Part shown: positions 16,115 to 32,200 of the stretch, piece after piece | How the letters are laid out: each line of letters opens with the position of its first letter | How positions within the stretch are numbered: the stretch's first letter is position 1 | Assembly: GCF_011008905.1 (NCBI RefSeq) | Contig: NZ_JAAIVI010000017.1 | Coordinates: 1,403,750 to 1,467,749 of the forward strand | Direction of reading: 5' to 3' | Source of the DNA: Wenzhouxiangella sp. XN201 | Lineage (GTDB): Bacteria > Pseudomonadota > Gammaproteobacteria > Xanthomonadales > Wenzhouxiangellaceae | Length of the DNA: 64,000 nt | Translations under genes and position numbers: made by a program | Notes under the pieces: model-generated | What the model saw: the letters and a program-made list of their open reading frames with translations, nothing else | Databases searched by the model: none | Told to the model about the DNA's origin: nothing

Positions 16115-16996
16115 ATGCGGCGAATTGTTCTGTTTCTGGCAACCAACATGGCGGTCCTGTTGGTTTTGGGTGTGGTCATGAATCTGCTCGAGCCGTGGCT
16201 GATACGCCAGGGCATCGATCTCAACCACGCATTCATCCTGGGCTTTGCAGTGATTTTCGGCATGGGCGGCGCCTTCATCTCTCTTCTGATGTCGAAGAAG
16301 ATCGCCCTGATGAGCACCCGGGCCCAGGTGATCGAAAAGCCGCGCAATGCTACCGAGAAGTGGCTGGTCGATACCGTAGCGCGGCAGGCGAAGGAAGCCG
16401 GTATCGGCATGCCCGACGTGGCCGTCTACGACGCGCCCGAGCCCAATGCCTTTGCCACCGGGGCGTCACGCAACAACGCCCTGGTGGCTGTCAGCAGTGG
16501 CTTGCTACACCACATGCAAACGAACGAGGTCGAGGCCGTTCTGGCCCACGAAGTCTCGCACGTGGCCAATGGCGACATGGTCACGATGACGCTGCTACAG
16601 GGCGTGCTCAATACCTTCGTGCTGTTGCTTTCGCGGGTACTCGGCCAGATTATCGATCGGGTCGTGTTTCGCAGTGAGCGCGGTTACGGTCCGGGCTATT
16701 TCGTGACCGTGATCGTGCTGCAGATCGTGCTCGGCATCCTGGCCAGCATGATCACCATGGCCTTCTCGCGCTGGCGCGAGTTCCGGGCCGATGCCGGCGG
16801 CGCCCAACTGGCCGGGAGGCACAACATGATCGCTGCCCTCAAGCGCCTGGGCCAGGCTCGCGGCCCGGCGCAGCTGCCGGAATCGGTGGAAGCTTTCGGG
16901 ATTCGTGGCCGGGTGGGGCAAGGCCTCAAGCGATTGCTTATGAGCCATCCTCCCCTGGAGGAGCGCATCCGGGCGCTGTCCCAGGGCGCGGTTTGA
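16115..16996 (+). CDS. htpX: Protease HtpX
   Basis: This 293-aa inner-membrane zinc metalloprotease takes part in membrane-protein quality control with FtsH. The start [21 protein letters not shown] fits the family. The zinc motif HEVSH is at residues 145-149, with a Glu ligand in the later FRADAGGA segment, and there are two N-terminal and two central membrane helices. The frame also opens at 16091, but 16115 is preferred because GAGG lies 7 bases upstream and it matches family starts. It is followed by a 676-bp non-coding region holding repeat copy A. Confidence 0.95.
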
Positions 16997-17039
16997 TGCC
17001 GCCCGTCTGCCTCCGGCGGCTCTAGTCGATATGCGGCTG

Positions 17040-17665
17040 CTGCGAGGCTTGCTGGCCTCGACAAGTCAACTTCTGTTCCGCCCGCCTGCTACGCAGGCTG
17101 ATGGCGGGTAACTTTTTTCCCGCGCGAAAAAAGTAACCAAAAAACGCGCTTAAAAGCAGGCGGTTACGTCTCGAAAATCTCGCTGCGGAGCGGCTTCACA
17201 GACTCCGGCTGGGGCTTCGCTTGTGCCCGGCTGAGGAACATGCTGGCTTGCGATGACGCTTGCAGCGGCCCGCGTCTGGAACAACGACTTCGAGTGGCGT
17301 TCCACTAGCGATCACTGTCCCACCCTCAATCGAAGCCGACCCCGATCGAGGTCGTGCCGTCTGGGTGCGGGCTACGCCAGGGCTTTAACGAAAACGCCAT
17401 GTTTCACGACCGAGCATTAGCGAAGGCAAAAGCGGTATCTCCGTTAAGCCCAAGAGCCATCTGGTCCTGCGGACCAACCGCGTCTTCTAAGAGCGTTTTT
17501 GGTGACTTTTGTCGCGACTGACAAAAGTTACTCGCCATCAGCCTGCGAAGCAGGCGGGCGAAATCGCCTTTGACTTGTCGAGACCGCCGAACCCGGCGGT
17601 AGCAACGCACAAACTAGCAGCAGCAAAACGACAAATCACCCGCCACCAGCCTGCGAAGCAGGCGC
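17040..17665 (+). repeat. Dispersed structured repeat, copy A (fills the gene-free 16997-17673 region)
   Basis: A 418-bp core (17111-17528) is bounded by two hairpins: ACTTTTTTC/GAAAAAAGT (17111-17119 and 17126-17134) and ACTTTTGTC/GACAAAAGT (17505-17513 and 17520-17528). The core is flanked by inverted modules (17056-17112 against 17527-17583) containing GCCTGC-NNN-GCAGGC hairpins, and a further such hairpin lies near 17650. Copy B at 31.5-32.2 kb carries the same core on the same strand, with stretches over 40 bp identical in its 3' part. No start codon with ribosome site, transposase or tRNA is present. It lies between the 3' ends of htpX and the FimX-like gene. Confidence 0.85.
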
Positions 17666-17673
17666 GACCCAAC

Positions 17674-19731
17674 CTAGACGGAAGCCTCCTCGCGCACAAA
17701 TTCCCCCTGCACCAAAATAATTCCGAATTGCCACAAAGTAGCCAAATCACCGGTATTCTCAACTCGCGGAGCGATGATTCGGGTCCTGTGCTGGCGAGCT
17801 TCGCTGACCAGGGTCGACAGTTTCTGGCGTCGTTCCTCGTTGTCGCTCAGGTCCTGGATCATTTCAGGGGCGAGTCGCGCGAAATCGATGTCGAGGTGGC
17901 GTAGCTGGCTGTCGATCGGGGCATCCGGGCCGACGTCGCACAGGGCGAAGCGACAATCCAGTTTCCTCAGGCGCTCGATGAAGGCCTGCACGGGTCGAAG
18001 CTTCTCGCGCACCTCGGCTTCACGGAAACCGAGAATCAATCCGGTCGGAGAGAGTGGGCCGTCGGCAAGTCGCTTTTCGATTGCCTCGATGGCCGACTCA
18101 TCCGTGAGCGTTTCCAGGCTGAGCGGCACGAGCCACTGTGCGTCCGGTTCCTTGCGTTCGTTGATCAGCGCTTCCAGGCGGTCAAGCATGTCAGCGTCCA
18201 CGCGTGGCGCCAGGCCGACACGCGCGGCGGCGGCCATATAGACGGCGGGCAGCATGACCTCGTCGCTGTCTTCGGGGCGCAGGCGCGTTTCCACCTCGCT
18301 GATCAGGAATTCATCGTCTTCCATGCTGGTGATCGGTGAAGTGACCAGGCCGAACTCGTCCTGGTCGAGGGCATGGCGCAGCCGCTCGTCCCAGGCGGCA
18401 TCGTCCTCGTCGCCCTCGGCGGATACGCGCGGCCGGTAACGGACGAAGCCCTTGCCGCCGGCACGCATGGCTTCGGCCAGCGCCGACTCGGCCTGCTCGA
18501 TCAGCGTGTCAGGGTGATGCAGTTCGCTGCCTGCGATCGCCAGTCCGATGCTGGCCGAGACCGTCAGGCTGGTATCGCGCACGTCGATGATGCGTCCGGT
18601 CGATTGTTCCACGATGTCGCTGGCCAGTTTCTCGGCCTCCTCCCGGTCGTCACACTCGGCGAACAGTGCAAAGCTGTGATCGCGCAGGCGGGCCATTTCG
18701 TGCGTTTCGCCGGCGACGTCCCGGAAAAGATTGGCCGCTTCTCCGACCAGGTCGTCAGTGGCACCCACGCCGACCTTGTCGAGCAGCTGGTCGTGATCGT
18801 CGAGCGACATGACCAGCACCGTTAGCCCACTGGTATCGGAGCGCCCGTCGACTGCGCGCTCGAGCAGCTCGGTGAAGGCCGGCGCGTTGAGCATGCCGGT
18901 CAGCAGGTCCGAGGTCCGGAGCTTGCGCAATTCTTCCTCGAGCTCGGGATCACCCTGCGTTACCTTTTCGCGCACCAGCATCTGGGCGCAGTACTCACCG
19001 CCGTAGCGCGCTGGCGAAAACGAGACCGAGGCGGTAAAGGCCGTGCCGTCCTGGCAGTGGGCGTTGAGCTGCAGGGCCTCGCTCGGCAGCTCGTCGCGAG
19101 CGATGGCCTTGAGCACCTGTTTGAGGTCGGGTACTTCATCGCTGGCCGAGAGCAAATCGAGCATGGACAGGCCCTCGAGCTCTTCGAAGGAATCGAATCC
19201 GAACAATTCCAGGTAGGCCCGGTTGGCGTAGATGTGCAGACCCTCGTGAATGTAGGCGATGGCCTCGCTGGAACTGTCGAGCAGCAGGGTGTAGCGATCC
19301 TCGATGTCGGCCAGGCTTCTGAGCGCAATTTCGGCGTCCCTGCGCGCCCTGAGCGATTCGACCTGGTGGGTGACGAGTCGCTTGAGTTGGCGCAGGCCGG
19401 CCTGGTTGACGAAGCCGTCGACGCCGGCGGCGGCCACGGCCAGGGCCGCTTCCGTATCTTCTTCGTCGATCAATGCCAGCACCGGTACGAAGCGGTCCTG
19501 TTCGCGTGCGGCGCGAGTGCTGGCCTCGAACAGGGGCAGGTCGGCCGAATCGACGTTGACCATGACCATGTCGATGGGTTCGGACTCGAAGGTTCGCTGT
19601 ACGGCATTGCCGGTATCGGCAAACAGGGTTCTCACCCCGGCGTCGTCGCCCAGCATCTGGGATAGCTGACGCGGAGCCGATGGGTCGTCGGTGACGGTGA
19701 GTATGCGAATCTCGGTCGGCTGCTTGGCCAT
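17674..19731 (-). CDS. FimX-like protein: REC-PAS-degenerate GGDEF-degenerate EAL
   Basis: The 685-aa protein has the order receiver-like (about 6-125), PAS (about 140-250), GGDEF (about 275-435) and EAL (about 445-680). This is close to FimX of Pseudomonas (691 aa), a c-di-GMP receptor that controls type IV pilus assembly. The GGDEF signature site reads RLRDHSF and the EAL signature reads SEVETRL, so neither enzymatic activity is expected. Start 19731 (MAKQPTEIRIL) is preferred to the longer frame at 19812, which would run through the epmB terminus. It lies downstream of epmB in the same direction. The pilus link is inference from architecture. Confidence 0.75.
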   Translation of the reverse strand: MAKQPTEIRILTVTDDPSAPRQLSQMLGDDAGVRTLFADTGNAVQRTFESEPIDMVMVNVDSADLPLFEASTRAAREQDRFVPVLALIDEEDTEAALAVAAAGVDGFVNQAGLRQLKRLVTHQVESLRARRDAEIALRSLADIEDRYTLLLDSSSEAIAYIHEGLHIYANRAYLELFGFDSFEELEGLSMLDLLSASDEVPDLKQVLKAIARDELPSEALQLNAHCQDGTAFTASVSFSPARYGGEYCAQMLVREKVTQGDPELEEELRKLRTSDLLTGMLNAPAFTELLERAVDGRSDTSGLTVLVMSLDDHDQLLDKVGVGATDDLVGEAANLFRDVAGETHEMARLRDHSFALFAECDDREEAEKLASDIVEQSTGRIIDVRDTSLTVSASIGLAIAGSELHHPDTLIEQAESALAEAMRAGGKGFVRYRPRVSAEGDEDDAAWDERLRHALDQDEFGLVTSPITSMEDDEFLISEVETRLRPEDSDEVMLPAVYMAAAARVGLAPRVDADMLDRLEALINERKEPDAQWLVPLSLETLTDESAIEAIEKRLADGPLSPTGLILGFREAEVREKLRPVQAFIERLRKLDCRFALCDVGPDAPIDSQLRHLDIDFARLAPEMIQDLSDNEERRQKLSTLVSEARQHRTRIIAPRVENTGDLATLWQFGIILVQGEFVREEASV

Positions 19732-31455: not shown

Positions 31456-32200
31456 CAGCTTCGCTGTCGCTGGGTTGGTTGTTGCCACGGGTGGCTGTGC
31501 GAGCCTCGACACTTCAAAAGCGGTTTCGCCCGGCTTGCTTCGCAGGCTGGTTCGTCAACTCGCTGATGCTAGCTAGTGTGTAGCTACCGCCGCGGTCGGC
31601 GGCCTCGACAAGTCAAAGGCGGTTCCGCCCGCCTGCTTCGCAGGCTGATGGCGGGCAACTTTTTTCCCGCGCGAAAAAAGTAGCCAAAAAACGCGCTTAA
31701 AAGCAGGCGGTTACGCCTCAAGAACCTTCAAGCGGAGTGGCTTCACGGACTGTGACTGGGGCTTTGCTTGGGCCCGGCTGTGGAACATGCTGGCTTACGA
31801 TAACGCCTGCAGCGGCCCGCATCTGGCGCAATGACTTCGAGTGACGTTCCGCCCCAGGGGCTTATCCCACCCTCAATCGAAGCCGACCCTGATCGAGGCC
31901 GTGCAGTCTGGGTGCGGGCTACGCCAAGGCGTTATCGAAAACGCCCTGTTCCTCGACCGAGCCATCGCGAAGGCAGAAGCGGTATCTCCGTTAAGCCCAA
32001 GAGCCATCTGGTCCTGCGGAACAACCGCGTCTTCTAAGCGCACTTTTGCTGACTTTTGTTGCAACCGACAAAAGTCAGTCGCCCAAAGAGCCTGCGAAGC
32101 AGGCCGGGCGAAACCGCCTTTGACTCGTCGAGGCTCGCACTGCGACCTGTGGCATCAGCCAACCCAGCGGCAGCGAGTTGACGAACCAGCCTGCGCAGCA
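31456..32200 (+). repeat. Dispersed structured repeat, copy B (fills most of the gene-free 31338-32275 region)
   Basis: The 420-bp core (31658-32077) matches copy A in order and strand. Boundary hairpins are ACTTTTTTC/GAAAAAAGT (31658-31666, 31673-31681) and TGACTTTTGT/ACAAAAGTCA (32050-32059, 32068-32077). The left side carries two tandem ~100-bp modules (about 31456-31546 and 31547-31657). The right side carries an inverted module (about 32085-32190) whose reverse complement matches the left outer module at roughly 85%. GCCTGC-NNN-GCAGGC hairpins end the modules. It sits between divergent genes. I see no genes in 31338-31455 or 32201-32275. Confidence 0.85.

Follow-up and report, generated by a model that had tools for sequence, protein, structure and literature searches.

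The 64-kb stretch of the Wenzhouxiangella sp. XN201 genome analyzed here (the window) carries two copies of a non-coding, MITE-like element, the whole 530-base body of which is one long imperfect inverted repeat. On balance, it is probably a non-autonomous mobile element of the foldback type, with ends defined by structure and copies that evolve in concert. This element occurs in many copies of near-fixed length, is homogeneous within its genome and is absent from the corresponding sites of relatives; its end hairpins covary, and the loop and linker of such ends covary across 29 families.

Organization and evolution of the copies

Copy A, the whole foldback unit between inverted TCGACAAGTCAA arms, extends from 17054 to 17582 on the + strand, as delimited by an alignment of 26 copies. 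The limits of the conserved unit are the inverted outer arms TCGACAAGTCAA (17058–17069) and TTGACTTGTCGA (17570–17581). Inside them lie, in order on the + strand, 1) the 5' end palindrome GCCTGCTACGCAGGC (17084–17098; helix 3), 2) the 5' end hairpin ACTTTTTTC..GAAAAAAGT (17111–17134; helix 4, with a stem S1 of 9 bp and the loop CCGCGC), 3) a linker with the purine tract AACCAAAAAAC (17135–17149), with a position read from the sequence and a possible role suggested by cross-family tests of the ends, 4) the 5' half of the inner base stem, CCAAAAAACGCGCTTAAAAG (17137–17156; helices 5–7), 5) the rod interior (17157–17483), which matches only elements of the same genus, 6) the 3' half of the inner base stem, CTTCTAAGAGCGTTTTTGG (17484–17502; helices 5–7), 7) the 3' end hairpin ACTTTTGTC..GACAAAAGT (17505–17528; helix 18), which is the 5' motif on the opposite strand, and 8) the 3' end palindrome GCCTGCGAAGCAGGC (17541–17555; helix 20). 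Terminal inverted repeats of about 110 bp are present, as the ends of the query match each other on the opposite strand (helix 1). Beyond the TCGACAAGTCAA arms, the outer modules are less regular and are also present as arrays; the 3' outer module (17583–17663, + strand) consists of a hairpin, ACCGCC..GGCGGT, plus a further GCCTGCGAAGCAGGC palindrome, and an 80-base outer-module query gave 60 matches in the same genome.

Copy B (31601–32132, + strand) has its 5' hairpin at 31658–31681 and its 3' hairpin at 32052–32075. The initial annotation, made from the window alone, had described a core bounded by two hairpins of nearly identical stem and repeated on the same strand; both hairpins of copy A and the second copy were found as described, and the two cores are identical at 364 of 415 aligned positions. 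Two details needed correction. Core B (31658–32075) is 418 bp long, the same as core A, rather than 420 bp, and the limits 17111–17528 are too narrow, since the conserved unit continues past both hairpins, through the palindromes, to TCGACAAGTCAA and TTGACTTGTCGA. Copy A is flanked by genes for an M48 peptidase and a GGDEF/EAL protein, and copy B by divergent genes for a glycine-zipper protein and an EF-G-like protein.

A query of 626 bases (17040–17665) gave 125 matches in the window's own genome (G000; 3.13 Mb in 22 contigs). Of these, 27 (A and B included) are near-full copies, which, except for A itself, share 78–91% identity with the query; the others are incomplete copies, fragments at contig ends, or hits to the same copies on the opposite strand. 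Several contigs terminate inside element copies. The element thus recurs in this genome far beyond chance, and the earlier statement that it is present twice is true of the window only; the prediction that a mobile element should be found in more than two places was borne out. With 27 near-full copies, no open frame common to the copies and a length of about 530 bp, it resembles a MITE, although it is longer than the 70–300 bp given for MITEs in the part of PMC3733652 considered here. DNA matches were obtained in at least 8 of 60 relatives and, within the genus, in at least 5 of 29 other species, with at most nine candidates per genome scored. The window element did not match plasmid sequences, and a pattern scan of a genome collection, from which records near the window are possibly absent, gave a single hit, in a Clostridia MAG, which is probably due to chance.

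For comparison of the cores, 22 of the 27 copies were used (L029, L039, L040 and L042a failed the anchor filter and L044 was left out), and 26 of the 27 were used for the whole-unit alignment, L028 being dropped because of an N run. The compared core was exactly 380 nt long in 19 of the 22 copies, and 18 had no indel relative to the majority. Substitutions relative to the majority base occupied 807 of 8,360 cells and were concentrated in certain columns, while linkage between variable sites fell to background beyond about 50–100 bases. The copies are therefore mosaic, with short-range linkage as expected from frequent exchange between copies. Since the most alike pair among 23 aligned cores was only 91.1% identical, nothing points to recent transposition within this set.

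Three sites of L086, a 20-kb stretch with four further G000 copies, permit comparison with the related species G017. The copies at these sites share 81–87% identity within G000 and 89–91% within G017, whereas the same site compared between the two genomes shows 62–65%, no higher than different sites (62–65%). Hence either each genome homogenizes its own set or the species filled the same sites anew. The 11 clearly oriented G017 copies are all 574–576 bases long. G017 also contains a shortened element (L102; G017:C107:27573-27944) that has both ends but lacks part of the interior, possibly an internal deletion product.

No frame was open in all 22 cores, the best being open in 7, and variation by codon position was 304/247/256 (no formal test). 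A protein-coding core is therefore not supported, and the short hypothetical peptides that the initial annotation associated with this type of core find no counterpart in a conserved frame. Such repeats fill intergenic space in many proteobacterial genomes and often yield spurious predicted peptides.

Fold of the element and distribution of its ends

RNAalifold, applied to the 26 copies, predicted a single long rod that bears side hairpins at the base. Over the whole structure, changes on both sides of a pair were found in 11 pairs and 82 cells, as compared with 7.0 and 30.4 in shuffles (none of 500 as high) and with 0–3 pairs in slid controls. They affect 2 of 6 pairs in the 5' palindrome, 2 of 11 pairs in the 5' end hairpin (99.3% of cells paired), 4 of 10 pairs in the 3' end hairpin (100% of cells paired) and 1 of 6 pairs in the 3' palindrome. 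The end hairpins and palindromes are supported by these two-sided changes. One of five covariation measures, the number of further pair types, showed no excess (21 versus 21.1 in shuffles). The interior helices are mostly invariant and thus do not test the rod; inner paired columns were 4.0% variable and unpaired ones 16.5%, in a structure fitted to the same alignment. Column-shuffled + strand alignments folded worse than the real alignment on either strand. Long-range self-pairing was found in all eight elements tested (six of the same genus, one from G034 and one from G071), with 81–140 pairs as compared with means of 24–34 in dinucleotide shuffles, and it is for this excess that we call it a foldback element; further elements were folded without shuffles.

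The ends compared across families were hand-picked, one to a few per genome, among the matches listed, in slightly differing sets of 67, 61 and 65. We found that the end hairpin is followed by about four bases (such as xACC) and then by a purine run that varies with the stem: CTTTTCTCTTG is followed by AAAAGAGAAG, CTTTTCTCTG by AAAAGAGAG, and CTTTTCTTG by AAAAGAAG or a near version, and a TTTTTT stem in G000 by AAAAAA. The linker mirrors the purine arm of the stem at 169 of 232 free positions (i.e. those beyond the AAAA fixed by the search pattern), as compared with 41% after permutation (0 of 5,000 permutations as high), and mirror order fits better than direct order (427 versus 315 of 492). 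This is the sequence geometry of an intrastrand triplex, a hairpin plus a mirrored purine third strand. The rule has exceptions: in G011, two types of stem are followed by AAAAGCG, and in family f17 CTTTTGG stems are followed by AAAAGG.

The bases directly after the purine run are complementary to the hairpin loop, the loop/complement pairs including TGTC/GACA, TGCC/GGCA, TGCT/AGCA, TGGC/GCCA, CGGC/GCCG, GGTC/GACC and AAGAGCC/GGCTCTT. A complementary run of at least 3 bases was present in 54 of 61 ends; in the set of 67 ends, the mean run was 3.67 versus 2.75 after permutation. When one end was taken for each of 29 families (from the 65 hand-picked ends), neither the mirror nor the loop complement was equalled in 20,000 shuffles. 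Longer stems go with longer linkers (Spearman 0.62); L1 measures 1–2 nt in 40 of 54 ends, and L2 measures 0 nt in 45 of 54. Such proportions are those of an H-type pseudoknot with its third loop lying along stem 1. Judged from its sequence, the end looks able to fold into an H-type pseudoknot with a possible third strand. In the window element, the loop complement comprises four bases (GCGC/GCGC) on the 5' side but is weak on the 3' side, where only three consecutive bases can pair; the GCGC in the copy A linker (17135–17149) is complementary to loop bases 17122–17125, and this linker may possibly comprise pseudoknot stem S2 and the third strand. In two loci of other genomes (L158 in G439 and L159 in G544), the 7-base complement AAGAGCC/GGCTCTT occurs with a linker that does not mirror the stem, and these ends may represent a variant in which loop pairing dominates.

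A search with the end-hairpin pattern ACTTTTN{3,18}AAAAGTNNCCNAAA gave matches in 53 of 200 genomes of the order, representing 21 of 69 genera, while the control, the same pattern reversed, matched 12 times, in 11 genomes. Several single matches of family f9 are AT-rich and, like the control matches, look like chance. With a slightly stricter pattern, 34 of 398 genomes of the phylum were positive, all 34 belonging to the class of the window and none to other classes. The hairpins often form inward-facing pairs; in G528, all ten form five pairs 0.7–1.6 kb apart, and an end is nearly as in the window (GGTTCCGCCC..GGGCGGGT.ACTTTTT..AAAAAGTAACCAAAAAACGCG). Among 17 loci outside the genus, 11 matched the ends of the window element and none matched its interior (17157–17483), which was matched in 3 of the 4 other species of the genus compared.

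Several loci are worth noting. 1) L157, the f17 version of the element, has two partial named matches: one on a plasmid of Pseudomonas antarctica, with 40% of the stretch covered at 82% identity, and one in the record of a Pseudomonas phage, with 27% covered. 2) In L164 (NZ_CP015601.1, 58039-58574), on a P. antarctica plasmid, a partial match to the f17 element has annotated type III secretion genes on either side. 3) The interior of L148 (G528), which has an N run, contains repeated CCCCTCTCCCGCCTGCGGGAGAGGGG hairpins, recalling the TM_ECO triplex motif as described in the part of PMC4666352 considered. 4) In L152 (G524:C1:1170845-1174002), inward-facing end hairpins 3.1 kb apart enclose frames for Tae4 and a PAAR-domain protein; of the five frames scanned, three had no Pfam match, and the enclosed frames may be cargo or may just lie between two separate elements.

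Insertion sites, mobilization and alternative interpretations

The site of copy A was searched for in 13 genomes and was empty in 7 (G003, G006, G010, G019, G025, G026 and G027), occupied in 2 (G011 and G017) and without a call in 4. The flanking genes are 20–76 bp apart at the empty sites, where junction sequences were read for all but G006, as compared with about 680 bp in the window. The site of copy B was empty in G003, G010 and G017 (26, 110 and 143 bp between flanking matches, respectively) and occupied in G011. Since the orthologous sites of related species are empty, copies A and B are insertions; the comparison is between species rather than strains. The expectation that the boundaries would coincide with insertion junctions was thus upheld at the level of the intergenic site, but the exact junctions are blurred by the variable outer modules. 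For the same reason the search for target-site duplications was a weak test; none was found, the longest repeat between left and right flanks being 7.2 versus 7.3 in shuffles.

Sites 1, 3 and 4 of L086 are also occupied in G017. Neither G011 nor G017 has an element at site 2, and both G003 and G010 lack one at site 4. Because G000 and G017 have three of the four occupied sites in common, either some of the insertions are old or these positions are insertion hot spots. The best-scoring direction of the element at sites 3 and 4 (L118 and L120 in G017) is opposite to that in G000, although direct pairwise comparison at site 3 favored neither direction (0.616 both ways). The apparent reversal may be due to an inversion mediated by the inverted ends or to separate insertions at one position.

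As judged with a simple codon-based gene caller, the genes flanking the 27 G000 copies are convergent in 14 cases, tandem in 8 and divergent in 4; copy B was left unclassed by the script, owing to a gene call that extended too far, but its neighbors are in fact divergent. Of 18 G017 loci, 11 were convergent, divergent or incomplete and 7 were tandem. A preference for tail-to-tail positions is known for other bacterial repeats (PMC2718517 and PMC3733652, in the parts considered), including the largest repeat families of P. fluorescens (PMC2718517). The + strand of the element was antisense to the genes in 8 of 8 tandem cases in G000 and in 5 of 7 in G017, a bias (13 of 15 pooled, two-sided binomial about 0.007) that is only suggestive, since the cases include shared sites and short flanking frames.

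This bias bears on the main rival to the mobile-element reading, namely that the pseudoknot and rod act as a structured non-coding RNA (e.g. a 3'-UTR stabilizer, an RNase substrate or a protein-binding RNA), with mobility being incidental. Besides the antisense placement in tandem pairs, the conserved length, the restriction of most variation to predicted loops and the L1 and L2 proportions, which are familiar from RNA pseudoknots, agree with such a role. However, Rfam gave no match at E values up to 1 in 16900–17900, no promoter-like site was found, terminator-like sites were no more frequent than expected by chance, and both strands fold about equally well. The ends are also symmetric, so that one pseudoknot can form on either strand. 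A first count suggested strand polarity, with 53 cells changing from Watson-Crick to G-U and 7 to A-C, but it was biased by the folding program and was discarded; with G-U pairing switched off the numbers were 9 versus 4 columns (p = 0.27), and with a consensus-only fold 49 versus 54. Since the G-U excess is not significant without G-U pairing, we assign no strand. The conserved structure would suit the structured RNA gene offered as an alternative in the initial annotation, but would equally suit single-stranded DNA. Overall, we regard an RNA role as rather unlikely.

It is still less likely, and in our view improbable, that the element is a domesticated chromosomal repeat, inherited vertically, homogenized and immobile, with a host function such as domain insulation or the binding of gyrase or nucleoid proteins. 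Sites common to G000, G011 and G017, the strong homogenization, the lack of very similar core pairs and the intergenic location of the copies would fit such a history. Against it stand the patchy distribution in the genus (among 29 other species, at least 5 gave a DNA match), the empty sites in sister species and the fact that other families have different interiors behind the same ends.

As candidate mobilizing enzymes, Y1 transposases were sought in G000 and in other hairpin-bearing genomes. No Y1 domain was found in G000 (E ≤ 0.001), and 5 of the 17 genomes with at least 10 hairpins, including G000 and 4 of the 5 richest, lack Y1, although 137 of the order's 200 genomes do have Y1 genes. 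No end hairpin was present around 20 Y1-gene loci in bearing genomes; as a control, the same hairpin search was positive in 11 of 11 element loci and in the window. A REP/REPIN/BIME-type or TIRtron array moved by an IS200-like Y1 transposase (RAYT or TIRYT) would account for the palindromic modules in inverted arrays and for a gene-end preference like that of REPs (PMC3733652, in the part considered), but mobilization by Y1 is disfavored, and such an array very improbable, because Y1 is lacking in G000 and in four other hairpin-rich genomes and the 20 Y1 loci lack the end hairpin. The tetramers GTAG and CGTC, which tag REP-type palindromes of 20–40 bp, were counted in the flank modules and do occur there.

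No autonomous copy, with ends enclosing a transposase, was seen in the loci examined (L148 with its N run included). The single RVT_1 match in G000, outside the window (L147; G000:C17:503285-503890), is an intact reverse transcriptase frame of 443 aa adjoining a second frame of 255 aa; together they look like a defense-type RT pair. It was set aside as a mover, as nothing links it to the element and the closest near-full copy of that contig lies over 100 kb away. The mobile-element claim of the initial annotation is therefore sustained by the multiple copies and the empty sites, but not by a target-site duplication, an autonomous copy or a mobilizing enzyme.

A non-autonomous foldback mobile element, the reading we prefer, could operate as follows. 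Each end presents, in order, a palindrome, a T/A-rich hairpin, a purine linker and bases complementary to the loop. In single-stranded DNA (or a transcript), each end would form a pseudoknot, possibly with a purine third strand, and an enzyme supplied in trans would recognize this fold rather than a sequence. The enzyme would then place the element in intergenic regions, chiefly at the ends of genes, and resident copies would exchange sequence by gene conversion, so that the copies of a genome are kept alike, with the ends remaining under constraint. Extended to the other families, this suggests, tentatively and as a possibility short of probable, a mobile-DNA superfamily spread through the class Gammaproteobacteria, jointly characterized by fold-defined ends (H-type pseudoknots with a stem-matching purine third strand), a recombinase acting on single-stranded DNA or RNA, and exchangeable self-complementary interiors.

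Comparison with known repeats

Among the papers listed in searches of the open-licence literature, none was recognized as a description of the family or of pseudoknot ends in it. If the end is truly a conserved pseudoknot with a third strand, it would provide a searchable signature for the whole superfamily and would point to an enzyme that reads the shape of DNA or RNA; the element would also be a clear case of concerted evolution of dispersed bacterial repeats.

The element resembles REPs, REPINs, BIMEs and TIRtrons in its inverted palindrome arrays and gene-end preference (PMC3733652 and PMC2817692, in the parts considered), but differs in being 530 bp long with a conserved core and in that no linked Y1 was found. 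The TIR families of S. maltophilia (PMC3733652) are known to us from their description in part of that paper rather than by sequence. The P. fluorescens repeats R26 (352 bp) and R200 (320 bp) are of a similar size class, a likeness that is again by description only (PMC2718517, in the part considered).

The intrastrand triplex motifs ITxF and TM_ECO (Holder et al. 2015, PMC4666352) likewise combine a hairpin with a mirroring purine tract and, like the ends of the element, some occur as inverted pairs. In contrast, TM_ECO is G/C-rich and short, and neither a long foldback element nor a loop complement is described in the portion of that paper considered; the word "pseudoknot" does not appear in its main text.

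MITEs and stem-loop repeats such as Ppu-1 are likewise non-coding, multi-copy, intergenic, self-complementary and hundreds of bases long. Ppu-1 of Pseudomonas putida is 617 bp long and present in 39 intergenic copies (Cozzuto et al. 2008, PMC2267715); pseudoknot-like ends and a class-wide spread are absent from the part of that account considered. Its length fits the approximately 620 bp from hairpin to hairpin in the f17 locus L157, a comparison by size, as the published table gives sizes and copy numbers. The superfamily may be partly catalogued already under local names such as Ppu-1.
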